From: a virus
IMG/VR virus record: IMGVR_UViG_3300025102_000056
Location: 1 to 47,594 of that record
Length of the DNA stretch: 47,594 bases
Strand: one strand, 5' to 3'
Shown here: positions 4,023 through 47,491 of the stretch, piece after piece
Position numbering within the stretch: the first letter of the stretch is position 1
Layout: each line of letters begins with the position of its first letter
Program-made: the position numbers and the translations under genes
Notes under the pieces: generated by a model
Told to the model about the DNA's origin: nothing
Databases searched by the model: none
Seen by the model: only the letters and a program-made list of their open reading frames with translations

Positions 4023-4286
4023 TTAAGTGACCTTTCTATAAGACTTCGTCTTTCGTGCAATCTTAGTTGGCTGTTTAGCCACTTGTTTTCCTCGCTTAAT
4101 TGCTTTTCGCTTTTTAGCCGTAGTGGCGGCGTATTCAGAGGAAGATAAAGCTTTAATTGCTTTCGCAGGCAAATAACGCTCGCCTGTTGCTTTTGGCCCC
4201 TGTGTACTAGGTTTACCACTTTTTGTTCGCCACTTCTGTCTACCCCAAGCTTTTAAGCTCCTTTGTGGTTTTTTTAAATTAGACAT
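4023..4286 (-). CDS. Small highly basic conserved phage protein
   Basis: This 87-residue protein begins MSNLKKPQRSLKAWGRQKWR and contains 'TKSGKPSTQGPKATGERYLP', then 'AIKALSSSEYAATTAKK', and ends in a run of Lys/Arg. I recognise the pattern as a recurring small protein in marine phages, but not a function. The Trp/Arg block followed by an ordered central motif suggests a folded basic domain, perhaps binding nucleic acid. It overlaps the stop of the EF-hand gene by one base and ends next to the adaptor gene. Confidence 0.6.
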   Translation of the reverse strand: MSNLKKPQRSLKAWGRQKWRTKSGKPSTQGPKATGERYLPAKAIKALSSSEYAATTAKKRKAIKRGKQVAKQPTKIARKTKSYRKVT

Positions 4287-4597
4287 TACTTTTTATTCAT
4301 CCAAGCTGTTGTACCCATATAAGCTCCAACAATACCTGCCCCACTTAAATAAAACAAATTACTAATATCTGACAAAGCCTTTACTCTTTCAATATCAATA
4401 ATAAACATTGCAACTGTAAATACTCCCATTGCAACTAAAGTATATCTTGCCATCCTTAGTTGAGCAAGCTGTTTCCTTAATTGAGTTTCTGTCTCTTTCA
4501 TCATCTTAGCATGCTCTAACTCTTCATCAGTAACTACACCATCCCCGTCAATGTCATATTCATTGTATTTACTGTTATTTTCAAGTTTTTTGCTCAT
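4286..4597 (-). CDS. EF-hand protein with two membrane segments
   Basis: This 103-residue protein carries a canonical EF-hand calcium loop at residues 15-26 (D15, D17, D19, G20, T23, E26 in place). A short charged helix follows (about 30-50), then two hydrophobic segments (about 52-68 and 80-98). EF-hand loops bind Ca2+ and the two membrane segments imply inner-membrane insertion, so a Ca2+-sensing holin-like or virion membrane-contact role is possible but unproven. Small EF-hand proteins of this build occur in other marine phages. It overlaps both neighbours (four bases upstream, one downstream), so it is firmly part of the late operon. Confidence 0.7.
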   Translation of the reverse strand: MSKKLENNSKYNEYDIDGDGVVTDEELEHAKMMKETETQLRKQLAQLRMARYTLVAMGVFTVAMFIIDIERVKALSDISNLFYLSGAGIVGAYMGTTAWMNKK

Positions 4598-19631: not shown

Positions 19632-20678
19632 ATGAGATTATCATTAGCAAAAAAGATCATTGTCGAGGGCATCAAAAAGAATGTTGCTCAAACTTCAACT
19701 AAGCCAATTACTTTCCATTTAGATGGTAGTATGGGAATTGGTAAAACTGCACTAGCAAAACAGATTGCTCAGGACTTGGGCTTTTACATGCAGAATATTG
19801 CACTTGCTCAGCTAGAGCCTACAGACATTGGCGGTATGAGAATGCCTCAGGGCGATAAGATGATTACTCTTCAGCCTGATTGGTATATAGATGCTGATCG
19901 CATGGCTCAGCTAGAGGCTGAGGGCTTTAAAGGTGTACTTTATTTCTTCGATGAGTTGCCTCAAAGCCCCGTACTTAACATGAATATATTCGCTCAAATT
20001 GCTGACGAATATAGAGTTGGAGAGTACAAGCTAGACAGAACAAAATGCTATGTAATGTCAGCGGGGAACAAGCTATCAGATAAGGCGGGGACTAATACAA
20101 TGCCAAGCCACTTGATCGATAGACTTACGTTCCTAGAGATTGAGCCAAACCTCGAGGACACTTGCGGATACTTCGCTAAAAGCGGTGTTGATCACAGAGT
20201 TATATCGTGGTTGAGATTTCAGCCTGAGTTCTTGCATCAGTTTAAAGTTGGAGTGAATGCTTATCCAACTCCAAGGTCAATCGAGAGGTCAGCACAGATC
20301 ATGAATTGGGACTTGGATGACGAGGCAATGGCTGAGGCTATCAGCGGTCAAATTGGTCGCCCCGCTTATGCAAACCTTAAAACTCATATGGATGTACATG
20401 ACAAATGTCCTGACATTGATAAGCTGATCGCAAGCCCTGATACTGCTGAGATTGTTGAAGAGCCTGCGATTATGTATGCACTTTGTTCATCGTTATCAAC
20501 TAAGGCTAACGATAAGAACATAGGCAACATTTTGAAATACCTCAAAAGATTACCTAATGAGGAGTTTCAAGCTTTTGTTCTTAAGGATGCATTATCTAGG
20601 GACAACAGTCTTAAGCAAAATAAAGATGTCAGATTGTGGGCATCTGCAAAGGGCAACGGGAAATATCTCGTTGCCTAG
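19632..20678 (+). CDS. MoxR-like AAA+ ATPase
   Basis: This 348-residue ATPase has Walker A GSMGIGKT at residues 32-39, Walker B VLYFFDE at 102-108, a sensor-1-like AGNK at 144-147 and R164 in 'PSHLIDRLTFLEI', which could be the arginine finger. MoxR proteins are hexameric ATPases that remodel partner complexes, usually with a VWA protein encoded next to them. Here the VWA partner is the next gene, 31 bases on. The pair is like CobS/CobT-type chelatase subunits in layout, but no cobalamin gene is present, so a chaperone-like role in phage takeover or assembly is more likely. The TAG stop is the start of a dispersed palindrome. Confidence 0.85.
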   Translation: MRLSLAKKIIVEGIKKNVAQTSTKPITFHLDGSMGIGKTALAKQIAQDLGFYMQNIALAQLEPTDIGGMRMPQGDKMITLQPDWYIDADRMAQLEAEGFKGVLYFFDELPQSPVLNMNIFAQIADEYRVGEYKLDRTKCYVMSAGNKLSDKAGTNTMPSHLIDRLTFLEIEPNLEDTCGYFAKSGVDHRVISWLRFQPEFLHQFKVGVNAYPTPRSIERSAQIMNWDLDDEAMAEAISGQIGRPAYANLKTHMDVHDKCPDIDKLIASPDTAEIVEEPAIMYALCSSLSTKANDKNIGNILKYLKRLPNEEFQAFVLKDALSRDNSLKQNKDVRLWASAKGNGKYLVA

Positions 20679-20698
20679 AAGTTAACTTTAACTTTTAG
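20675..20698 (+). repeat. Dispersed palindrome between MoxR and VWA genes, best copy
   Basis: CTAGAAGTTAA and TTAACTTTTAG flank a CT spacer. The 11-base arms pair fully in RNA with one G-U, and the first TAG is the MoxR stop codon. The Shine-Dalgarno of the VWA gene (TTAGGAG) overlaps its 3' end. Confidence 0.85.
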
Positions 20699-20708
20699 GA
20701 GTGCAAAT

Positions 20709-21872
20709 ATGCATGATTTACCAAGGAAGATCGCAAGATCAAAGGTCAGGCTTATGCTTGATAAACTTTCAAAAGGTTGGGGCTTTTATGCCTCAGTCCT
20801 TTATCAAATGCCAATGGTTGAGAAAAGTTCTCTTCCTACTATGGCAACTGACGGCAAAAGTATTTTCTATAATGCAGAATTTACTGATGCCTTATCTGAG
20901 GCTGAGTTGGATGGAGTTAAAGTTCATGAGGCTTACCATCGTATCCTAAAGCATCATTTAAGGATGGGCAAAAGAGATGCTGAGTTATGGAATATTGCAT
21001 GTGATTATGCGATCAATCCAATAATAATTCAGTCAGGTCTTGTTCTTCCTGAGGGGGCTTTGATTGATGACAAGTTCAAAGGTATGTCAGCAGAAAAAAT
21101 TTACGACCTACTGAAACAAGATCAGGGCGATGATGGAAACGGCGGTGGCGGTAGCGGTCAGCCTCAACCTCAGGAGTGGGGCAATGTTGAAGATCAGGGC
21201 GGTGGTATGTCTGAAGATCAGATCAAATCTGAAGAGGCAACAATCAATGCTCAGGTTGTTATGGCGGTCAACTCAATGAAGACTGAGGCGGGTAAACTTC
21301 CCGCTAACATCAAGGAAATCATTGACGAGATGAAGAGGTCTCAGATTGATTGGAAAGATGTACTTCGCAGATTTGTTGGCGGAGATCAGCCTGAGGGATA
21401 TTCTTATCGCAGACCTAATCGCAGACAATGGTACTTAAACGAGGTTGTCACTCCCGTATCAAACAAGATCGGATGCGGAGACATTGTTGTTGGCATCGAT
21501 ACTAGCGGATCAGTTTCAAGTATTGAGTTATCCCACTTCTTGGGCGAGCTGAATGCTATCGCTGAAAGCTCAGGTGCTGAAAGTGTCACAATCATTACAT
21601 GCGACTATGATGTTCAAGATGTTGTCAGGTATGAGAAAGGCGATCAGATTGAGGACATATCATGTAAAGGTCGAGGCGGTACAAGAGTAATGCCCGTCTT
21701 CGATTATATTGCTGAGAACAATATCAATGTCGATAACTTCATTTACTTTACTGACATGGGCATTGGCGATTATCCTCAGCAAGATGTTGGATATCCTATC
21801 CTTTGGGTATCAAGCGATATGAGAGGGGAAGAGGCTCCCATTGGAGAGACCACTTACCTCAAAGTAGCCTAA
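20709..21872 (+). CDS. HExxH-VWA protein, partner of the MoxR ATPase (DUF2201-like)
   Basis: This 387-residue protein has two domains. The N-terminal one carries HEAYH at residues 73-77, an intact HExxH zinc-peptidase motif, followed by 'GKRDAELWNIACDYAIN', typical of the DUF2201 N-terminal metallopeptidase-like domain. A Gly/Gln-rich acidic linker (about 138-170) leads to a C-terminal VWA-like domain with a MIDAS site: D264-T-S266-G-S268, T325 ('GGTRVMPVFDY') and D349 ('FTDMGIGD'). VWA domains bind partners through a metal ion. MoxR ATPases commonly act on such proteins. The start is supported by TTAGGAG eight bases upstream. Confidence 0.82.
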   Translation: MHDLPRKIARSKVRLMLDKLSKGWGFYASVLYQMPMVEKSSLPTMATDGKSIFYNAEFTDALSEAELDGVKVHEAYHRILKHHLRMGKRDAELWNIACDYAINPIIIQSGLVLPEGALIDDKFKGMSAEKIYDLLKQDQGDDGNGGGGSGQPQPQEWGNVEDQGGGMSEDQIKSEEATINAQVVMAVNSMKTEAGKLPANIKEIIDEMKRSQIDWKDVLRRFVGGDQPEGYSYRRPNRRQWYLNEVVTPVSNKIGCGDIVVGIDTSGSVSSIELSHFLGELNAIAESSGAESVTIITCDYDVQDVVRYEKGDQIEDISCKGRGGTRVMPVFDYIAENNINVDNFIYFTDMGIGDYPQQDVGYPILWVSSDMRGEEAPIGETTYLKVA

Positions 21873-32527: not shown

Positions 32528-32530
32528 CTA
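32507..32530 (-). repeat. Dispersed palindrome at the end of the giant gene
   Basis: On the minus strand TAGAAGTTAA-TT-TTAACTTTTAG: the first TAG is the stop of the 3131-codon gene. Arms are 10-11 bases with one G-T. It mirrors exactly the placement of the copies after plus-strand genes. Confidence 0.8.
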
Positions 32531-35500
32531 GCCTGCCTTTTTATATCCCGCAGACCTCATAAGAATAAGACCCATTTGCTGAAGCTCGTTTATCTTATCT
32601 CTTCTAATTCTTATAATTTTTCTTTTTGTATTCTCAGGTATTTGTGGATTTCTTTCAATCTCTTTTATCTGCCTTTGCATCCTATTTCTTGCATTATCTA
32701 TGGCTTTCATTCTTCCAACTATACTTATTTGTTTCTTATTATTCTCGTAGATAGATGCGACTGCTTCTTTATCCCCAGACCTCTTTGCCATATCTAGTTG
32801 TGCTATTAACGTAAATAGGTCTTGTCTGTTATCTAAATAATTACCCGTGTCTGCTCTTGGAGACGGAGTTGTTATAACCTTTCTTGCTAAAGGTATACTG
32901 TTTATTAGACTGCCTTCAAAGTCTCCTTGTAGTGCATCGTATATGTCTACGGGAGCTTCAAGGCTTCTCATCGCAAATCTTCCTGCCCCACCCGTAAAAG
33001 TTCCAAACCAATACTCTATAATGTCAGGCGACATATCTATTAGTCCGCCTTTTATATCGTCTCCACCAGTTAAGCTATTAACACTAGAAGCTATTGTCTT
33101 AGCTATAGAACTAGTATTAGACCAATATTGAGAACTGTTTGCTTTTGCTACAGATGCGTAGGTAGGCGATTCTTTGTAAATAGGATCGCCTTTGTAATCC
33201 TCATTTATTCCTACTGATATAAATGGGTCAAATACTGTAGGGGCTGCGAAGTTTAAGAAGTTATCATAAGCACCTATAGGACTAATGCTTTCAACAGTTG
33301 TTCCAACGATACTCCTCATTGCTTCGCCCGGGGTGTATTCGCCTCTGCCCATCCTACTCAAACTTCTACCAAAATTAACTGCCATATTAAGACCATAAGC
33401 CATTGGGATTGTTATATGCTTGTCGCCTGTAAGACCTAAAGTTGGTACAATTATATTGTGTTCAAGTATATGTCTTGGTATCTCATCATAATCACTAATA
33501 CCATCTTCGTCTTCATCTCCAGAAAATAGTCCGTTAATAGTATCTTGCATAATGCCGTACACCATTAATCCCGCCCACATTTTTCTTACTTTGGATGATC
33601 TAGTAGCCGCGTTAACAAGTGCCATAGAACCTTGTAAAGAAGCATTATAAAATAAATACATGCTATTCATTACTGCTTTATTCTCTCCGCCTTTCGCAAA
33701 GTTAACAGTGATGTTCCTCGCTGCCAACGCAGCTCTTGACTTAGACACGCCTCTATCACGAAGTGATTTATACAAAGATACCCTGACACCATTCTCAACT
33801 GCAGTATTTGCATTATCTAACATAGATAGCAGTGATCTAGCATTCTTACCTACAAATTGATTTCTATTTAATCCTAATTTTTGTTTAATACCACTATCAG
33901 ATATATCTCCTATTATATTATCAATATTATCTATCTGATCTTTAACATCTCCCATTTGGTTAGTGGCATTCTTTCCACCAGCAGAAACAAACTCTTTATA
34001 TATATCTGTCCATTTGTTCACTGCATTTTTATCAAATAATAATTTACCAATACCTATAACTGCTGAAGGAGTTCCTTTCATTACTTCTTTAGTAAAACCC
34101 TTTTCGTCATACTCTTGTGCATTTATGCCTGCCGTCTCAAGGTCTCTTGCAAAGTTTGGAATAACAAATGACGGGTTATAGGTTGTATTTACCGCAGATA
34201 GAAATCTGTTAAACTTTCCCATGTATCTAAATATTGCGGCATTTTGTTGTGGTGTTAAAGCGCCGTTCATAGACTTAGCTATTCTTGGGTCTTTTATAAG
34301 AAAATCTCTCTCTACTCCATTTTCTTTATATGTAAAAATATTTTCTGGCTTTACTCCTCTTTGATTTCTTTGCTGACTGTTTAGATTTGTTATTTCTTCA
34401 GCAATCTCTTTCATTTCTTTTGCAAGAGAGTCGTTTATAGCCATACTGCCATCAGGTTGTTCTTCAAGGCCCTCAACAAGCCTACCAAAAGATTGTCCTA
34501 CTTTATTTCTTTCGCCTCTGTCTATAGAGTTATTATTTTGTGCCATCAATGATGCAACAATATTTTCAGCATAATCGTTTATGCCTGCTCTACCTCTTGC
34601 TGATTTATCTTCCCTACCTTTTGCTCCAAAAAAGTTAGTAAATACTCTCTTCCTTCCGTACTGACTATCTAATATAGACTCAACTTCTATGTCGCTGTCG
34701 CCTTGAAGCGGTACATAAGAACCATCAGTGTAAATAATAATAGGAGGTTGTCTGTTAGGGTCTCTTGCATCTGCCGGTAATAAACCTGCCTCTATACGTC
34801 TATCTATAGTGTCTTCATTTATTTTTCTAGCAAACTCTCTTATTTCTTCAAATTTAGCAATTTCTGTTTTATCTAAACTATTATACCAATCAATAATTTG
34901 ATCAGCCTCAGTGCCAGTCATTCCTGATCCTGTGACTGTTTTGCCTCCAGTTTTTTGCTTTATATATGCGTTTCTTTGTCTTGCATGAAATGCGTATAAA
35001 ACGGCATCTGTCATAGCTAATTTTTTACCAACATAATCTTTTTCAATACTGTCGTAAAATCCAGTAGAGCCTGCTGAACCTTTTATGTCTCTTAATTCTT
35101 GTATTTTCTCTTCACTAATATTTAATGTGTCCATTACATTAATCATAGGCTCGAATAACTCTTCTTGTACTTTAGTAACCTTATCTCCTACTATTCCTGA
35201 ATAGTTAGCCTCTTGCATATAAGAGTCCATAGCATCTGTTATAGTAAAGCCATTCTTTCTTAACTCGTCTATCATAGACCCAACGGGTAACATGGCATCT
35301 TGAAAATATGTAAGTATTCTCTGGGCTCTTGCCTTAGCAACATCTTCTTCATAAAAAACACCCAAACCTTTAGCTATGAATTTAGACAAATTATCATAAG
35401 TCATATTCTGAGCTTTTTGATTCATGTCTTGAACAAACTCTTCTGAGTTAGGGCTTGTTGTTTGTGCTGGGTTAGAGCTAATAGTAGAATATTTAAACTT

Positions 35501-38500
35501 ATCTTTTATTGCTGTATTCTGTGGCTTGGTAAAAAAAGTTCTAACTTGATATAAAGACCTCCACTCATATTCTCTTGGAGCAAAAGCTTGGGCAACGTTA
35601 TCAGCAAAACTCTTTGGAGAAACTTTCTTTACTGATTTAAATCCTTTTGGCTCAAATTTTAATGAAAGAACAAGAGTTCTTTCTTGAGGCTTTATCTCTT
35701 GAGGTCTAGGATTTTGTCTTGTCCAAGGCTTCCCATATTTGTCTTTTGACATAGAAGAGCCGTCTGGAAATCTGCCATTTGCATTAGGTATCATCTTCAC
35801 AGGCAACGCTAAAGGAGCATTGTCCCACTCAATTCTAATGTCATTATTGCCTACACCACCATCAGGAAAAACTCTTATACCATAATCTTTAGGTCTTCTT
35901 ATAGAGCCATCTTTATAAAGACCCTCTGATATATCTCTGTTGTATTTTCTGTATTCTTCCATTGTATCAAATAGTAAATTTAATGGATCACCATCAATAA
36001 CAGTGTGGTATTTTAGTATACTTTCAGCGTGAGTAGGCAGCTTAATGCCATCCTCATTAAATCTTTCTCCAAAAATATGTTGATAACCATATCCACCATA
36101 TTTACCTTTTCTATTTTCTAAAGGAAAATGATCTCCTTGAGGCACAACAACTATTTCATTTACGCCGTTCATAGTCTTTGCATAACCATATTGATTTGGA
36201 TTTCCATATGGATAAGATGGTTTATATTTATATCCGCCTAATCCTGCAGTTTTTCTGCCTAAAAATCTTTGAGGCAGTCTTATTGGATAGTTAGGGTCAT
36301 CTAAGGCTCTTGGATTTCCTGCTATTTGAGAATATTTATAATCTAAACTAGCTTCTTCAAGTCTAGAAGCTTCTTCTGCAGGTAAATTTTCATAAGGATC
36401 AAAGTCAGGGTCTACTGGGAGAGCTTCTTCTTTTTGTTCTCTTTCAATAATTGAATCATCGCCTTCGCGAAGTTGTCCATCTCCTCTTCCGGCACTGATT
36501 CTACTATAGACTCTAGTTCGCTCTGCTTCGGGGAGTGTATCTGAGATTTCTCCATTTTCAAATCCTTTCAATTTTAATAAATATATTGCTCCATCAAGAT
36601 AGTCATTGTCATCGCCTGTGCCCTTTGAAACACCCTGCTTCTCAAAAAACCTCTTCTCTGCGTACCATAACAATGCTTGAAAATCTGCATTAGTAATTTT
36701 AATTCCAGTATCTGCTTCTAATATAGCTCTTGCTCTATTTACTATTTCTCGCATAGCGGCTCTATCAGCCGCGCCTCTTGGAGCTTCTTGCTCTTGCGTT
36801 TGTGTATTATTAAAATGTGTTTCAGTAGCTAATTGTAATTCTGATTTGTCAGGCAGTTTAGTGCCAAATCTCATATTGCCTGCTTGGTATCCTTCACTTT
36901 CAAATTCTTTTCTAAAAGATTGATACTCCTTAACAAATTGTTCAGAAAAAAGTAAAGCATTATTTGCATTAGTTATATCCATACTCAATGCTTCTTGAGT
37001 TCTGTCTATTAGCTCTCTATCTAATTCTGTTAATTCATTATCAGTAGGCTCTTCGTTTTGTTTTGCGCTTTGTTTTCTTCCATCAAGAGCCAATAAAACT
37101 CTTTCTAGGTTTCTGTCTAATGTTTTTTGTGTAGGTGGTTTTTTAAATACGTCACCAGTCAATCTGTTTATGGCTCTCATAAACCATATATCCATTGTCA
37201 AGTTATCGTAATTTCCTCGTAAGTTTTGATAAAAGCCATGTCCTATCTTAGGCCCTATTACAAAAGCGCCCGTAACTGGCGTGTTGGCTGATTCTCCACC
37301 TGATATCGTAATTTTTAATTCTTTTACAAATTGATTTTGTTTTAATTGACTAGGAGTTGTTTCCATGTCCATAAAATCTATAAATTCTTGAGTTGATACT
37401 CCATTATCTTTCATTGCATTATAAAATAAAAATGCTTTTTTCATTGCAGATGATCTCTTGCCCCAGCCTTTTTTAGGAAATCTGCCGTTTGTAGATGCTT
37501 TCCATGCAGCATATTGTTCTTCAGCATGTTTAAAATTAAATAATACGCCCATGCCATTTGATGTAACTGATAAAGCAAAATCAAAAGCTAAGTTTGCATC
37601 TTTATCTGTTAATATTTCAGGATGTATAATTGATACGGCTTTTTTAGCAGCTTTTAACGTTTTGTCATACCAGCCAATGGCATTATCGCCTTGCTCTAAA
37701 GCTTTTTCAGCTTCAGCCGCCATCATAATGGCTACGTTTTCCCTAGCTTCTTCTCTTTCTACGGCTTTTTTTGAATGAATATCAAATACTATACCGCCTC
37801 TTTTAATTTGATGATTGGCAAGAGCATCTAATTTAAGAACTTTATTAGCTACAGCTATATTAGCTTTTGTAGGATCAGTTTGATACTCAGGTTGAGGTAG
37901 GATATTTCCTTTTTTATCATATTCATTAACAATAGTGCTATCAATTAATGGTCTACCATTTGGATCAAGGGTAGATTTAGCTCTTGCTATAGATGAATAC
38001 TTTTTATCTATTTTTTGCTCGGCAGAACCTCTATCCCTTGCCTTTGAAAATTCTTCAGCAAGTTTTCGTATATCTCTTCCACTGATTGCTCTGGCTTCAC
38101 TACTGTAAGTACCGGCATTTTTGAGTCCTTCGACTCCTTCTGGTGTTTGGATTTCATTAAACTCTCCTAAATCAAATATTGCTAACTGATTACCTTCTTC
38201 AGCAACATAAAGAGCCTCATTGAGGTCTTCTATAACCATAGTTGCATCTAAATAATATATTCCATCTGATGCCCATCCACCAGCATATAGTTTTTTACCA
38301 GATATTTCTGTCATTAATTTTAAGTTTTTAGCAAATTGCATTACATCATCAAGAGTAAGATTTTCTGCTCTTATAACCATTTCAGCTTCTTTTACTGGGG
38401 CCACAGCAAAGCCTTTGTTAGGAACTTCTAATGTATCTGGGTCTACAGTAAATCCATCAGGATTATCTCTTATAAAACCTAACAATCTATTTTCTAATGA

Positions 38501-41500
38501 TTGTGGCTTATTTGATATTTTAGAGTATTTAAATTGTTCTTTGCCTTCAAACACAGGGTTTTTAGCTAGTACAAGTGGTCCAACTTGTATAACACGCTCC
38601 GCTGAAACAACTGGTTGTGTTGTTGTTCTATCGTAAAAATAAGAATGTCTTTCAGGATCAAAGCCAACTTGTATAAATGTAGGATCATTCATAGCGGCTT
38701 GAGCTTCTGCAAAAGAATTATCAGGAGTTGTTTGAACTAAATCACCAGAAATTGTAGCATAAGGAGATTTTGTCATTCTTTTAGCTTTAGTAATATCTCC
38801 TGTTTCTCTAAATTCAGCACCAAATGGCTTTCTTCTAGCTATATCTAATCCTTTATTTTGATCTGCTTCAGACATTGTAAAGTCTGCATTTGTTATTATA
38901 GCAGTAGATTCATGTGATATAGCTTTCCCTGCCATATTATGTATAGTTGGAACCCATGTGCCTTTTGTTGTGTAAGCTGGAATATCCAATCTTAATTTTA
39001 TTCTTGTTCCTTCAGGTATTTCTTGTAATTTGTTTATAATTGCTTTTTTCTTTTCTCCAGCTAAAGCCTCTCTCATTTCATTAATTGTTGCAGGAGCAGG
39101 AACAGTTTCATAAGGAACTATAGGCTTTACATCATTAACTAACTTATCATATTGTGCGTAGTTTATTTTGCCTTGATATAATTTTTCAGAGGCTTCAGTT
39201 AGGGCATCTATTCTTGTTGTTACATCTTTAAATGATTGTTTTATTCTTTCTGTGTTACCTAGCTCAGGTCTTATGTACCCGGCAGCTATACCAGCGGTAG
39301 AGTATTTTGTTAAACTTCTAGCAGACTTTGGAACAGATTGTTTTCTTTTGATTTCAACTTCTGTTTTAGTTGAAAGAATGTTTGCAAATATTTGATTTGA
39401 CTCAGTAAATCCAGCATCATAATTGCTAGTAAATATTGCTTTTAAGAATCTGATTATCTTATCAAATATACTTTTTGGCTTTGCAACAACTTTTAATTTA
39501 CCATCTGCGTAGTCACGAAACATTTCTGCTACGGCTTCTTCTTGTATTCCTTCTTCAGTCAATCCTTGGTCTTTATAAAGTGCGCTTGCTCTTTCCATAT
39601 AAGAATATTCTTTTTTAACAAACTTACCTTTTTCTAATCCAACATACTTCCTCTTTATGGCCGCCTTAACGAGGATGTCATATTCTGCATCTGTAAACGC
39701 TCCCATGTTTTTAAGAGCGTGTATAATCTCATGGTTCATAACGCCAGAAAGTTTTTTTGTTAACTGAGCCTCTGTAAGATTAGGATCATACAAATCCATC
39801 GCCAGTCCAATAATACGTTTTCCTTCAGGGGTAGAGCCAAAATAACCTTCTAACGAAGCATCTTCTTTGCCATATTGGTTAGAAATAATAGATTCGCCTT
39901 CTAATCTAATATCGCCAAGACCCATATCATTTAATTGTTGCTTTAAATTATTAAGCACAGAAGTTAATTTTAACTTATAGGCATCTGTATATGGAGATTT
40001 TGAGGCTTGATCTGATGTTCTTTTAGATGTGTAGTCAGGAATAACGTCTTCAGATTTTACCTGCTCTGTTTTTTCTGTCTTAGCTTTCTCTGAGGCCGAC
40101 TCTAATGCATCGGCTTCATTTTTTAGTGCCATGTATTCTATAGCTAAATTATCTATCTCTTCTTCTGACATAGCTTTATTCTGCAGGTTCAGTATTTCTT
40201 TACCTCTTTGCTTAATAGCTTCTGACTTGGCTTTAATGTCTAACGCTCGTTGATCGGCCTTTACATATCTACCTTTTTTATCTTTTAAAACAACTCCATC
40301 TTCTTCCAATAACTTTAAATAAGTATCAACATCTGTATTAGTTATTTTAATTGATCCACCAAAACTATCGTTCAATGCTTTTCTTAAAGTATTTTTATTT
40401 AACTTGCCATTAACAGCAAGGTCTTCCACTATTATTGAAGCTTCTTTGTTTTTTGAATCCACTTCTTGATCTGTCATTTGGTTTTCTTGACCAGATGGAG
40501 AGTAATAAATATCTTTTTCTTGTTCAGTTAATATTGGTTTTTGTTTTGCTGTCTCTCGTCTTGCAGCTGAAGCGCCTATAGTATTTTCTAATTCATCAAT
40601 AGATACATCTGCGCTTGGATCAGCTCCACGCATTTGTCTACGTTGTGCAATTCTTAAAGCCTCGTCTTTAGGTAAGTTTTGCAATGAAATATTATTTAAT
40701 GGCTGAGTGGTTTCTCTAGCGGCGGCCATAGTTGCTGATGCACTTTTCTCTCCTCTAGTCCTTAAGTCCTCTATAGCTCTTGGTGCTATAGACTTTTCTA
40801 TCTTTTGACTAGGCCCTTGAAGGAGACGTTGCTCTTGTGTTTCAGGTATGTCTTTCTTAGGTCCTTCTAATAGCAAAGTAGGCTTCAAAGACTCGGCATA
40901 ATTTTCATAATTCTTTTGACGTTGTGTAGCTTCTCTATTTAAGTTTTTAAGGTCTTCGTCTAGTTGCATTCCTTTTTTATAAAACTTATTTAACTGCCTA
41001 CCTCTAACGCTATCTACAATTAAGTTTAAAGCAGCACCTGCACCACCACCGTATACAGCATCATCGTAAGCACTTTGTCCTACCTCAAGGTCAGGATTAT
41101 ATAAACCTTGCTCAATCAAATCTTGAACAATTCCAGCACCTAGTTCTTGCGCCCCCTCTGCAATACCAGCACCAAAGGATCTTTTTAATTTACCACCTAT
41201 CGTCATTAATGCTTTATCTATATCGGCTTTAGGAACCTTTTTGAGTATTCTCATTGTAGTGCCAAGTGTTCTGAACATAGGAGCAAAAGGCAATGCCTCG
41301 GTTGTTCCTAACAGTGCACTTAAACCAACTGCATCTCTTTTAGTTTGTTCATCAATTTCACCACCATTCTCAATAAAATTAGCCATTCTATTTAATTGAT
41401 CAGATGTTTGTAAAGCTGCACCTTGCGTTGCCATCGTTCCTAAAGCAGATGCTCCAGCTACTCTTGCTCCAGCGCCTAATAAAGAGGCTCCTTTAGCCAC

Positions 41501-41923
41501 AAATGTTCCGGGAATAAAGAAAGAAAGCAATGAACCAGCAGCTTGACCTGATTTACTTGATATACTTTCATTCATATCAAAAGTATCTTGTAAGCCTAAC
41601 GCTGCTTCATTAGACCAGTTTTGAGCAGCTTTACCAAAATCAGTAGAGCCTATATCATAGCCACCAACATATTCTCCTAATGCAGATATACCTCCGGGAA
41701 TTTGAGCTAGACTAGATAAAAATCCTCCAGCAGTAGACTTACCAAAAGTTAGTAATCCGCCTTCATCTTCTTCGGGCGCAGCGGGGACTTCTTGATTATA
41801 ATTTCCATCAGTAGAAATATAGTTTTGAATCTTATCAAATTCTTCTTGATTAGGTGTTTCACCTTCTATTTCAAAGTCATATAGCTTCCCAGATAAAGGA
41901 CTAATCGTAGAGTACATTCCCAT
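32528..41923 (-). CDS. Giant polyvalent virion protein with metallopeptidase and LPD38-like regions
   Basis: This 3131-residue protein fills 20% of the window. A hydrophobic Gly/Ala-rich stretch (about 125-175) could insert in membranes. A zinc peptidase motif HEIIH lies at 731-735, with a plausible third ligand in 'IQEEAVAEM' (about 795-800). Modules known from phage polyvalent proteins follow: 'RLDIPAYTTKGTWVPTIHN' to 'VGPLVLAKN' (to about 1120), 'DGFTVDPDTLEVPNKGFAVA' (to about 1300), 'GPKIGHGFYQNLRGNYDNL' and 'QALLWYAEKRFF' (1308-1863), and 'YGGYGYQHIFGERFNEDGI' (about 1930, possibly PBECR nuclease-like). The C-terminal 700 residues match the LPD38 pattern. (K/M)YS-x-I motifs precede each module. 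It is probably packaged in the virion and injected. Confidence 0.8.
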   Translation of the reverse strand: MGMYSTISPLSGKLYDFEIEGETPNQEEFDKIQNYISTDGNYNQEVPAAPEEDEGGLLTFGKSTAGGFLSSLAQIPGGISALGEYVGGYDIGSTDFGKAAQNWSNEAALGLQDTFDMNESISSKSGQAAGSLLSFFIPGTFVAKGASLLGAGARVAGASALGTMATQGAALQTSDQLNRMANFIENGGEIDEQTKRDAVGLSALLGTTEALPFAPMFRTLGTTMRILKKVPKADIDKALMTIGGKLKRSFGAGIAEGAQELGAGIVQDLIEQGLYNPDLEVGQSAYDDAVYGGGAGAALNLIVDSVRGRQLNKFYKKGMQLDEDLKNLNREATQRQKNYENYAESLKPTLLLEGPKKDIPETQEQRLLQGPSQKIEKSIAPRAIEDLRTRGEKSASATMAAARETTQPLNNISLQNLPKDEALRIAQRRQMRGADPSADVSIDELENTIGASAARRETAKQKPILTEQEKDIYYSPSGQENQMTDQEVDSKNKEASIIVEDLAVNGKLNKNTLRKALNDSFGGSIKITNTDVDTYLKLLEEDGVVLKDKKGRYVKADQRALDIKAKSEAIKQRGKEILNLQNKAMSEEEIDNLAIEYMALKNEADALESASEKAKTEKTEQVKSEDVIPDYTSKRTSDQASKSPYTDAYKLKLTSVLNNLKQQLNDMGLGDIRLEGESIISNQYGKEDASLEGYFGSTPEGKRIIGLAMDLYDPNLTEAQLTKKLSGVMNHEIIHALKNMGAFTDAEYDILVKAAIKRKYVGLEKGKFVKKEYSYMERASALYKDQGLTEEGIQEEAVAEMFRDYADGKLKVVAKPKSIFDKIIRFLKAIFTSNYDAGFTESNQIFANILSTKTEVEIKRKQSVPKSARSLTKYSTAGIAAGYIRPELGNTERIKQSFKDVTTRIDALTEASEKLYQGKINYAQYDKLVNDVKPIVPYETVPAPATINEMREALAGEKKKAIINKLQEIPEGTRIKLRLDIPAYTTKGTWVPTIHNMAGKAISHESTAIITNADFTMSEADQNKGLDIARRKPFGAEFRETGDITKAKRMTKSPYATISGDLVQTTPDNSFAEAQAAMNDPTFIQVGFDPERHSYFYDRTTTQPVVSAERVIQVGPLVLAKNPVFEGKEQFKYSKISNKPQSLENRLLGFIRDNPDGFTVDPDTLEVPNKGFAVAPVKEAEMVIRAENLTLDDVMQFAKNLKLMTEISGKKLYAGGWASDGIYYLDATMVIEDLNEALYVAEEGNQLAIFDLGEFNEIQTPEGVEGLKNAGTYSSEARAISGRDIRKLAEEFSKARDRGSAEQKIDKKYSSIARAKSTLDPNGRPLIDSTIVNEYDKKGNILPQPEYQTDPTKANIAVANKVLKLDALANHQIKRGGIVFDIHSKKAVEREEARENVAIMMAAEAEKALEQGDNAIGWYDKTLKAAKKAVSIIHPEILTDKDANLAFDFALSVTSNGMGVLFNFKHAEEQYAAWKASTNGRFPKKGWGKRSSAMKKAFLFYNAMKDNGVSTQEFIDFMDMETTPSQLKQNQFVKELKITISGGESANTPVTGAFVIGPKIGHGFYQNLRGNYDNLTMDIWFMRAINRLTGDVFKKPPTQKTLDRNLERVLLALDGRKQSAKQNEEPTDNELTELDRELIDRTQEALSMDITNANNALLFSEQFVKEYQSFRKEFESEGYQAGNMRFGTKLPDKSELQLATETHFNNTQTQEQEAPRGAADRAAMREIVNRARAILEADTGIKITNADFQALLWYAEKRFFEKQGVSKGTGDDNDYLDGAIYLLKLKGFENGEISDTLPEAERTRVYSRISAGRGDGQLREGDDSIIEREQKEEALPVDPDFDPYENLPAEEASRLEEASLDYKYSQIAGNPRALDDPNYPIRLPQRFLGRKTAGLGGYKYKPSYPYGNPNQYGYAKTMNGVNEIVVVPQGDHFPLENRKGKYGGYGYQHIFGERFNEDGIKLPTHAESILKYHTVIDGDPLNLLFDTMEEYRKYNRDISEGLYKDGSIRRPKDYGIRVFPDGGVGNNDIRIEWDNAPLALPVKMIPNANGRFPDGSSMSKDKYGKPWTRQNPRPQEIKPQERTLVLSLKFEPKGFKSVKKVSPKSFADNVAQAFAPREYEWRSLYQVRTFFTKPQNTAIKDKFKYSTISSNPAQTTSPNSEEFVQDMNQKAQNMTYDNLSKFIAKGLGVFYEEDVAKARAQRILTYFQDAMLPVGSMIDELRKNGFTITDAMDSYMQEANYSGIVGDKVTKVQEELFEPMINVMDTLNISEEKIQELRDIKGSAGSTGFYDSIEKDYVGKKLAMTDAVLYAFHARQRNAYIKQKTGGKTVTGSGMTGTEADQIIDWYNSLDKTEIAKFEEIREFARKINEDTIDRRIEAGLLPADARDPNRQPPIIIYTDGSYVPLQGDSDIEVESILDSQYGRKRVFTNFFGAKGREDKSARGRAGINDYAENIVASLMAQNNNSIDRGERNKVGQSFGRLVEGLEEQPDGSMAINDSLAKEMKEIAEEITNLNSQQRNQRGVKPENIFTYKENGVERDFLIKDPRIAKSMNGALTPQQNAAIFRYMGKFNRFLSAVNTTYNPSFVIPNFARDLETAGINAQEYDEKGFTKEVMKGTPSAVIGIGKLLFDKNAVNKWTDIYKEFVSAGGKNATNQMGDVKDQIDNIDNIIGDISDSGIKQKLGLNRNQFVGKNARSLLSMLDNANTAVENGVRVSLYKSLRDRGVSKSRAALAARNITVNFAKGGENKAVMNSMYLFYNASLQGSMALVNAATRSSKVRKMWAGLMVYGIMQDTINGLFSGDEDEDGISDYDEIPRHILEHNIIVPTLGLTGDKHITIPMAYGLNMAVNFGRSLSRMGRGEYTPGEAMRSIVGTTVESISPIGAYDNFLNFAAPTVFDPFISVGINEDYKGDPIYKESPTYASVAKANSSQYWSNTSSIAKTIASSVNSLTGGDDIKGGLIDMSPDIIEYWFGTFTGGAGRFAMRSLEAPVDIYDALQGDFEGSLINSIPLARKVITTPSPRADTGNYLDNRQDLFTLIAQLDMAKRSGDKEAVASIYENNKKQISIVGRMKAIDNARNRMQRQIKEIERNPQIPENTKRKIIRIRRDKINELQQMGLILMRSAGYKKAG
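39958..39980 (-). repeat. Intragenic copy of the dispersed palindrome
   Basis: CAGAAGTTAA-TT-TTAACTTATAG inside the giant gene, encoding K-L-K-L-T-S on the minus strand. The match to the intergenic copies is as good as between those copies. Confidence 0.6.
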
Positions 41924-45805: not shown

Positions 45806-46252
45806 TTAGGCTCCTACTGCTTTCATTCTGCTTATTAATCTTTCTGCTCTATTAGGCACTTGCACTCTCCATTTTGAGTCATGCATCTCTTTTGATGCAG
45901 ATTCCCAATCACCTTTATTTACAGCCAGTTTTAGTTTACTAAACTTTGAGAGTCTTGTGTACCCCAAATTATACATCATATTGCATAATATTAATTTTAC
46001 TTCTTCTGGTAGCTTATAAAAATCTTTATATAACTTTTCACAATCTTCTATAGTTCCAATTATATCATCATTAAAACAGCTGTTTATACGCTTCCTGCTT
46101 ACTGGTGTACCTACTGGCATACCATATTCTAGGTCTGTCTTTTTTACAAGGTGACCTATTCCAAAAGTTGGTAATTTTAAATGATCGAGATATATTTCAG
46201 GTACATTACCCTCGTCTGCTTCTATCTCTTCTCTTAATTGCTCTATATCCAC
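45806..46252 (-). CDS. T4-type lysozyme (GH24 endolysin)
   Basis: This 148-residue protein has the GH24 triad E14 ('EADEGNV'), D23 ('YLDHL') and T29 ('PTFGIGHL') with exactly the spacing of T4 lysozyme E11-D20-T26. The rest follows the family ('VKLILCNMMYNLGYTRLSKF', 'SKWRVQVPNRAERLISRMKA'). It cuts peptidoglycan glycan strands at the end of infection. There is no signal peptide, so it needs a holin, and the holin gene lies just upstream. AAGGGAGA is in place before the ATG. Confidence 0.92.
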   Translation of the reverse strand: MDIEQLREEIEADEGNVPEIYLDHLKLPTFGIGHLVKKTDLEYGMPVGTPVSRKRINSCFNDDIIGTIEDCEKLYKDFYKLPEEVKLILCNMMYNLGYTRLSKFSKLKLAVNKGDWESASKEMHDSKWRVQVPNRAERLISRMKAVGA

Positions 46253-46355: not shown

Positions 46356-46751
46356 TCATTTAGTTAGCCCCTTATATTTCTCAAAACTACGAAGCCCTCC
46401 CAATCCGAGCATTCCCATCAAGACCGTCATAAGTGAACCCATGTCAAAAGTTGGAAGCTCTGGTATTTCTACTGCTAAATACGCACATACAAACATAGTA
46501 ACGGGCGCAAGCACGAAATGCCAACATAGAGCAATGCCACATGTCCAACCAATAAAGGGGCGCCATCCGGCAACAAAAATTGATTTATGTTTTGCTTCAG
46601 TTTGATTTATAGCTAACTGACCTTTAGCCAATTCTTGCGCATGATTCTCAGCCATCGTTGCCACCTGATGTGCCAACTTATTTTTCATATCTTTGTCTTC
46701 TATAAACTTACCAAGAAGATTAGATACAGGTCCTATTAACGCTGTGAGCAT
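46356..46751 (-). CDS. Holin, three-membrane-segment type
   Basis: This 131-residue protein has an amphipathic charged N-terminal half ('IEDKDMKNKLAHQVATMAEN') and hydrophobic segments at about 60-82, 84-96 and 105-122. The motif 'AGWRPFIGWTCGIALCWHFV' is the hallmark of the 3TM holin family (Holin_3TMs, shared with gene-transfer-agent holins). It would form the membrane pore that lets the lysozyme reach the wall. It precedes the lysozyme gene by 103 bases. It overlaps a 48-residue gene by 16 bases at its start. Confidence 0.85.
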   Translation of the reverse strand: MLTALIGPVSNLLGKFIEDKDMKNKLAHQVATMAENHAQELAKGQLAINQTEAKHKSIFVAGWRPFIGWTCGIALCWHFVLAPVTMFVCAYLAVEIPELPTFDMGSLMTVLMGMLGLGGLRSFEKYKGLTK

Positions 46752-46882
46752 TTACATTCCTTCCCTTTAAACTTGCTGTCTATCCATACTTTGCCATAAT
46801 AAAGCACAAATAACCAGACAGTAAATAAAACACCTTCAACATAACTTAGCTCATTCCAAGCATCTAATACCATGTTTTCCAT
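46736..46882 (-). CDS. Small membrane protein next to the holin
   Basis: The 48-residue product begins MENMVLDAWNELSYVEGVLF, has one hydrophobic segment (about 16-32) and ends in a basic Cys-containing tail ('FKGKECKCSQR'). The frame fits between two genes with overlaps of 19 and 16 bases, as in other compact lysis cassettes. It may be an antiholin or spanin-like piece; nothing more can be said from sequence. Confidence 0.55.
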   Translation of the reverse strand: MENMVLDAWNELSYVEGVLFTVWLFVLYYGKVWIDSKFKGKECKCSQR

Positions 46883-47082
46883 TTTAATCTCCCTGCTGGT
46901 AGTTTTTTACATTGATATCTAAATGGTTTCCACAAAGGATATGACCTATTAACTTGTCTGCTAATAGCCAAAGCTCTTTGTTTACAATCAAACTCTGTTT
47001 CATAAGGCCCATATTGATCCTCTAATGTTACGCAACTATTAGGCGCTCCAATTACGCACATAGTTACCAAAGCTTTAAACAT
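46864..47082 (-). CDS. Small Cys-containing exported protein candidate
   Basis: I start at ATG 47082, directly after the upstream stop, giving 72 residues (MFKALVTMCVIGAPNSCVTL...). The first 12 residues are hydrophobic after a single Lys, like a short signal segment, and Cys residues at about 9, 17, 33 and 60 suggest disulfides or a lipid attachment. The pattern 'C-V-x-L-E-D-x-x-G-P-Y-x-T-E-x-x-C' is familiar from small periplasmic-type proteins in phage lysis regions. Its position between a tail and holin gene supports an envelope role such as a spanin helper. Confidence 0.55.
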   Translation of the reverse strand: MFKALVTMCVIGAPNSCVTLEDQYGPYETEFDCKQRALAISRQVNRSYPLWKPFRYQCKKLPAGRLKWKTWY

Positions 47083-47083
47083 A

Positions 47084-47491
47084 TTATAAAGCGCTTTGTG
47101 GCGTTCTATGTAAAGCAAACTCTTGTATGCTTGCTATAACATGCAATCTACCGCCTGTAGCTGCCGTTGCTTTTAATATATCTCCACTTTGTAATACTAA
47201 ATCTCTTGTTAATAACTCTATTGATGTATTTGCTGCAACTGCTTTAACTTGAAACAAACTAAATGCTTGATTAGTAAGAGTCCCAGTTGAGCTTAATCCA
47301 TCTCCAGTAATCGTTAATGTTATTGTATCTGCACTACCAGAATCATTAGATATTATTATACTGCTTACAATAGAAGAGTTAAAATCTGCATTAGAAGGCG
47401 CTGTATATACAGTTGTTTCAGCAGTTGTTGTTAAGTCAACTTTAGCGTTTGTAAGACCTTGAACATACTGTGGTATACCTACAACTAACAT
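47084..47491 (-). CDS. Beta-rich virion protein, unknown role
   Basis: This 135-residue protein begins MLVVGIPQYVQGLTNAKVDL, with Thr/Ser/Ala-rich strands ('VYTAPSNADFNSSIVSSIII', 'DTITLTITGDGLSSTGTLTN'). This is the composition of small phage head or tail decoration proteins with an Ig- or jelly-roll-like fold. It starts in a TAATG overlap with the upstream tail gene, so both are made together. No motif gives a specific function. Confidence 0.55.
   Translation of the reverse strand: MLVVGIPQYVQGLTNAKVDLTTTAETTVYTAPSNADFNSSIVSSIIISNDSGSADTITLTITGDGLSSTGTLTNQAFSLFQVKAVAANTSIELLTRDLVLQSGDILKATAATGGRLHVIASIQEFALHRTPQSAL

Follow-up and report, generated by a model that had tools for sequence, protein, structure and literature searches.

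What does a canonical EF-hand calcium loop do on a small phage membrane protein? The question is raised by the minus-strand gene of protein P0001 in the window, by which is meant the whole stretch of 47,594 nucleotides of the viral record IMGVR_UViG_3300025102_000056. The loop, its conservation and the gene context of P0001 are observed directly. From the sequence comparisons below we suggest, in a judgement that is evenly balanced, that P0001 might be a calcium-responsive accessory of lysis timing, of second-holin or antiholin type. The coordinates of the features are collected in Table 1.

Table 1. Features at the EF-hand gene and at the lysis genes of the window.
Feature	Position	Strand	Basis
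P0003, small basic protein, phrog_14910 (unknown function), downstream neighbour	4023..4286	-	ORF list, PHROG match
P0001, EF-hand protein with two predicted membrane helices, 103 aa	4286..4597	-	ORF list, translation; relatives found
Second hydrophobic helix of P0001, about aa 80-98 (by eye)	4304..4360	-	model helix 69-102; hydropathy weaker than in the first
First hydrophobic helix of P0001, about aa 50-68	4394..4450	-	hydropathy scan; within model helix 24-66
EF-hand loop DIDGDGVVTDEE of P0001, aa 15-26	4520..4555	-	translation, pattern scan; in 276 of 277 distinct members
P0002, upstream neighbour, 254 aa	4594..5358	-	ORF list; neighbour of the EF gene in several groups
Phage_lysozyme (PF00959), probable endolysin, beside GTA_holin_3TM	45806..46252	-	Pfam match
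P0004, GTA_holin_3TM (PF11351), recognised holin of the window genome	46356..46751	-	Pfam match
P0007, small ORF, TTG start	46864..47118	-	relatives between EF gene and GTA holin in 7 loci

The EF-hand gene

The loop DIDGDGVVTDEE precedes both predicted membrane helices of P0001, and minus-strand translation confirms the canonical ligands listed in the original prediction, namely D15, D17, D19, G20, T23 and E26. It has the 12-residue form with ligands at positions 1, 3, 5 and 12 and a glycine at position 6, and by translation and pattern scan it is the single EF loop of the protein, which has no paired EF hands. The broad EF-loop pattern is found once, in P0001, with 0.12 occurrences expected per shuffled set (51 chosen window ORFs with 13,759 aa, the full ORF list having 199), and shuffling the P0001 sequence 100,000 times produces it 53 times. 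Pfam EF-hand_1 matches P0001 with E=0.0019 and 18.1 bits, under the gathering cut-off of 25.4 bits. The start of the gene overlaps P0002 by 4 bases and its stop overlaps P0003 by 1 base, which suggests that it is translated and belongs to a tightly packed operon; it sits within the structural region, and structural genes follow it.

The structural-gene region also has a match to phrog_3704, labelled 'ferredoxin', at 1630-2277 on the minus strand (E=4.5e-109), a label that may be wrong. Elsewhere in the window an ejection-protein-like gene at 43402-44337 matches phrog_4287, and downstream of it lies a single ORF of 3131 aa (32528-41923, minus strand). Positions 19632-21872 on the plus strand contain an AAA ATPase-like ORF, whose matches are below the cut-off, and after it a DUF2201 metallopeptidase/VWA-like protein with strong matches, a pair that we take to resemble the MoxR-VWA systems.

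Distribution of the family and conservation of the loop

A tblastn search at E<=0.1 located the family in 19 phage records, among which several are GenBank and RefSeq copies of one phage, and three scans of IMG/VR gave at least 590, at least 591 and at least 595 relatives, in sets that may overlap. The named members infect hosts of the Roseobacter group (CRP-1, -9, -207 and -345), Pelagibacter (HTVC008M), Methylophilales (Melnitz), Limnohabitans (DC31, freshwater), Sinorhizobium (phiN3, phiM12 and others) and Stenotrophomonas (DLP6), and the groups of relatives are about 24-43% identical to the window protein. The PHROG of the same family, phrog_27150, carries no assigned function and matches the window protein at 7.7e-7, CRP-9 at 5e-11 and phiM12 over the full length at 1.9e-96; among the divergent members DC31 matches weakly (0.003) and CRP-207 has no match at E<=0.01. 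Four loci with an EF relative on bacterial genome contigs were among the matches listed. Two of these are full-length with 72-75% identity, one on a Maricaulis MAG contig and one on a SAR116 single-cell contig, and the other two match the EF end only. On the SAR116 contig, which is 263 kb long, the relative (72%) lies near the contig end and adjoins an ORF of a lysozyme-like family, and could belong to a prophage, an infecting phage or an assembly artefact.

Conservation of the loop residues in homologues, on which the original prediction made itself depend, was borne out: the loop is kept in 276 of the 277 distinct full-length members, an unfiltered count that includes the window protein, and the lone exception is the DLP6 homologue, which is without the loop. 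The count omits 13 of the 415 matched loci, with contig-edge cuts, frame misreads or odd lengths, and in three of these the loop is visible in a neighbouring ORF. Each group consists of the best 80 loci per query and its members are close, so that independent support comes from comparing one group with another. Several search seeds overlapped the loop; those of the HTVC008M query touched only its last two residues, and this group has the loop in 62 of 62 members. D15, G18, G20, E26 and Q46 are invariant in an alignment of 15 rows with 24-88% identity to the window protein, and D15, D19, G20, E26, Q46, M49, V90 and A92 in one of 63 rows. The ligand codons vary synonymously in all five groups and loop positions 2, 7, 10 and 11 change residue, in a codon set that was prefiltered for a loop match and whose invariant columns are partly due to its construction. 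As a control, 1246 distinct small ORFs from the neighbourhood were scanned for the broad loop; only 4 contain it, and three of these lie at places where the EF gene itself was misread. The family profile matches EF-hand proteins in PDB, the best at 3.7e-10 and calmodulins from 6.8e-10, with E-values that sum several hands, the best single hands shown reaching only 0.056-0.25, and EF-hand_5 matches 43 of the 63 members at E<=0.01. The conservation is the strongest evidence that the loop matters; together with the synonymous ligand codons and the profile match it is what a functional calcium site would be expected to show, and the loop very likely binds calcium.

Membrane topology

The small membrane protein with two segments that had been proposed is predicted by a lax hydropathy rule and by AlphaFold, but in a strict 19-residue scan only the first helix of the window protein exceeds 1.2. 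With the lax rule (17 residues, 0.9) exactly two TM helices are predicted in 400 of 400 members of 95-140 aa, duplicates included. The AlphaFold model of P0001, made with 63 rows, has a mean pLDDT of 77.9 and a pTM of 0.50, and consists of a short helix of five residues (10-14), the loop, a helix 24-66 that begins where the EF loop ends and includes TM1, and a helix 69-102; the confidence over the loop is modest, with a mean pLDDT of 65 for residues 11-20 and 70 for residues 21-30. A fold search with this model gave no match at E<=0.001 in PDB and the viral structures. The mean number of K+R is 2.85 in the N-terminal flank, 1.05 between the TM helices and 2.38 in the C-terminal flank, and from this charge bias both ends, the EF hand included, are predicted to be cytoplasmic. 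P0001 probably forms a membrane hairpin of two helices whose EF hand faces the cytoplasm.

At rest, the cytoplasm contains far less calcium than the surroundings of the cell. The original prediction had tied the loop to the high calcium of sea water, an argument that is not needed, since phages of freshwater Limnohabitans (DC31) and of soil Sinorhizobium keep the loop and the EF hand is predicted to lie in the cytoplasm.

Genes surrounding the EF-hand gene

Neighbouring ORFs were taken from our own ORF caller and clustered by single linkage, and cluster representatives were identified with Pfam and PHROGs. An endolysin, spanin or GTA holin is located at most four genes away from the EF gene in 76 of 80 loci of the DC31 group, 67 of 70 of the CRP-9 group, all 10 of the CRP-1 group and 37 of 84 of the window group, the last including the four genome-contig loci. 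The cluster labels behind these counts were checked on representatives only, and cluster 41 ('Rz2') was left out of the scan; the lysozyme label of cluster 35 comes from reading the sequence and from the GTA-holin-seeded loci, and cluster 6 is a weak match to an Rz-like spanin. The typical order is EF - Rz-like spanin - M15 endolysin in DC31, EF - endolysin - lipoprotein with TM in CRP-9, EF - spanin2 - endolysin in the CRP-345 record, and EF - P0007-like - GTA holin - lysozyme in the window relatives. The EF gene is next to the endolysin in the DC31, CRP-9 and CRP-1 groups and not in the window, HTVC008M and CRP-207 groups. The neighbouring genes support a possible link to lysis in three groups and in some of the loci of a fourth; against a role in lysis timing, such genes are near in only 1 of 79 loci of the HTVC008M group and 0 of 80 of the CRP-207 group.

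In the HTVC008M (T4-like) group it is instead a tape measure gene that lies at most four genes away (61 of 79 loci), with the EF gene preceding it, and the same holds for distance in 15 of 80 loci of the CRP-207 group; the tape-measure label is based on the PHROG matches of HTVC008M and phiM12 and on record annotations, the cluster representative having only a weak match to phrog_790 'endolysin'. The T4-like records HTVC008M, phiN3, Melnitz-3, DLP6 and phiM12 all have the EF gene between gp51 and the next large gene. For HTVC008M and phiM12 this large gene has hits to tape-measure PHROGs, for DLP6 to phrog_315 'endolysin'. The CRP-207 record gives the name 'putative lysozyme' to the gene immediately upstream of the EF gene, a label that the PHROG scan, with only a weak tape-measure match, does not confirm.

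The upstream P0002 has a helical N-terminal part, a hydrophobic stretch at about aa 130-155 (by eye) and a Cys-containing beta domain, and its fold search against PDB gave no match at E<=0.001. This beta domain, the C-terminal third, is an extra part of the window P0002 and most of its close relatives and is absent from the aligned relatives of other groups. Relatives of P0002, including the related cluster 27 (profile match 98%), occur at most four genes from the EF gene in 49 of 84 loci of the window group, 46 of 70 of the CRP-9 group, 4 of 10 of the CRP-1 group, 26 of 80 of the DC31 group, 11 of 80 of the CRP-207 group and 3 of 79 of the HTVC008M group. They lie directly upstream of the EF gene in 47 of 83 loci of the window group. 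Of 13 records searched, six have a match to them, and the five T4-like records have none.

In two sets of loci seeded with relatives of P0002, the EF gene comes next in 22 of 55 usable new loci of the first and 13 of 74 of the second, and neither it nor a GTA holin is present within 1.5 kb in 22 of 55 and 58 of 74; these counts omit the loci fetched earlier (10 of 80, nine with the EF gene, and 1 of 80, also with it). Genes similar to phrog_2524 are near in 34 of 74 loci of the second set. Loci seeded with the GTA holin contain the EF gene in 15 of 75 new cases, omitting five of 80 fetched earlier that all have it, or in 20 of all 80 returned. The seeded counts indicate a neighbourhood whose genes are reshuffled and in which the EF gene may be present or absent. 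A relative of P0003 adjoins the EF gene in 26 loci of the CRP-9 group as well. Five loci (L434, L452, L475, L491 and L492) have the order P0002-like - GTA holin - P0003-like - lysozyme, the GTA holin being placed where the window has the EF gene, as if the two were mutually replaceable.

Holins of the window and of related phages

In the window record PF11351 matches only at 46401-46742 and not in the EF protein, and the other 10 phage records tested gave no match. With a GTA_holin_3TM and an adjacent lysozyme encoded in the window itself, P0001 cannot simply be called 'the holin' of this genome, and this pair is the strongest point against such an assignment. Identification of the EF protein as a holin by homology was tried and rejected, with a profile probability of 0.8% against the GTA holin and 39% at best against phrog_2524. 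The matches to the holin family PF07332 were likewise discarded as evidence, being weak (5 of 63 members and the EF gene of three records) and unspecific, as 12 of the 14 control genomes are matched too and the family's cut-off is exceeded in no record. The T4 holin PF11031 gave zero matches in the records and equally zero in the controls.

Possible roles of P0001

In the proposed role, P0001 would be expressed late and oligomerise in the inner membrane, with the N-terminal EF hand in the cytoplasm and its exit helix running straight into TM1. When calcium enters the cell, the EF hands of neighbouring copies would bind it and pair, and this should alter the assembly of the hairpins. P0001 might in this way help to set the moment of host lysis, in the manner of an accessory such as a second holin or a regulator of antiholin type; in phages that have no other holin it could even be the holin, and the P0002-type membrane protein that is often encoded adjacent is a possible partner. 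The single EF hand, the short entering helix, the modest model confidence over the loop, the Pfam score below cut-off, the loopless DLP6 homologue, the place of the gene in the structural region of the window and the many seeded loci without the EF gene speak against it. A more specific form, a calcium-gated lysis switch with the EF hand wired into a pore-forming or pore-regulating hairpin, is put forward tentatively; such a switch would be shared by phages whose proteobacterial hosts live in the sea, in fresh water and in soil, and would be a holin candidate for the Melnitz-like and pelagimyophage-like viruses, a suggestion of the same tentative kind. The original prediction of calcium control of a holin-like or ejection protein gains from the lysis neighbourhood, but 'the holin' is doubtful with a GTA holin elsewhere in the genome, and ejection has no direct support, although the EF gene precedes the tape-measure gene in the T4-like relatives.

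That tape-measure context, the position after gp51 and the structural genes that follow P0001 in the window would also fit a virion or tail-assembly protein, membrane-active and calcium-stabilised, that travels with the tail and tape-measure machinery or helps to assemble it. We consider this rather unlikely, the EF gene being found among endolysin and spanin genes in the DC31, CRP-9 and CRP-1 groups; a virion proteome of phiM12 was looked for in the literature and none was found. A further possibility is that in every phage of the family the P0001-type protein is the only or principal holin, of class II-like build with two TM helices and both ends inside and with an added calcium gate. The EF gene adjoins endolysin or spanin genes in CRP-1, CRP-9, CRP-345 and DC31, all without PF11351, and Melnitz carries the EF gene, annotated as a hypothetical protein in its record, and has no named holin in the available text of its paper, where 'holin' occurs only inside 'pinholin' and a curli pore is proposed as pinholin or secretin (PMC9004378). 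The PF07332 matches point the same way but are as unspecific as described above, and the window and 28 of 84 loci of its group also carry a GTA holin, so a family-wide holin is unlikely. Least probable, and in our opinion very unlikely, is a sensor of superinfection or membrane stress whose EF hand reads calcium that enters with phage DNA or through damage, with altered lysis or exclusion as the equally improbable outcome. The predicted cytoplasmic EF hand and the optional, accessory nature of the gene agree with it, and P0002 has a SieB match at chance level (E=0.18); beyond this the scans of the EF protein, P0002 and P0003 found no exclusion family.

Comparison with known systems

If the loop binds cytoplasmic calcium, a widespread phage family reads host calcium, a property of which we found no description in the open-access literature: titles and abstracts on EF-hand or calcium combined with phage, holin or lysis gave none of the P0001 family. 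Both 'holin' and 'EF-hand' are absent from the main texts of the CRP-9/CRP-13 and HMO-2011-type papers (PMC8528129, PMC9038755), and in the available text of PMC5107563 EF-hand is mentioned only in citing Slt35. T7 is reported possibly to possess a holin activity in addition to that of its known holin gene (PMC8365609). Should the lysis-timing reading be true, the moment of lysis could be triggered chemically, and phages such as Melnitz would gain a candidate holin or antiholin that can be tested.

With calmodulin and other EF-hand proteins P0001 has the canonical 12-residue loop in common, and the family profile matches calmodulins, but its loop is unpaired and is fused straight onto a membrane hairpin of two predicted helices. 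The bacterial EF-hand protein EfhP of Pseudomonas aeruginosa, according to its abstract, has two EF hands in contrast to the one of P0001. The GTA_holin_3TM family (PF11351) and phrog_2524 share gene neighbourhoods with the EF gene; the former has three TM helices by its Pfam title, in contrast to the two predicted in P0001. Class II holins have two TM helices and both ends inside. P0001 is likewise small, with two predicted TM helices and its ends predicted inside, and is encoded beside the endolysin in several groups, but its charged part is N-terminal and holds the EF hand, and the window has another holin.
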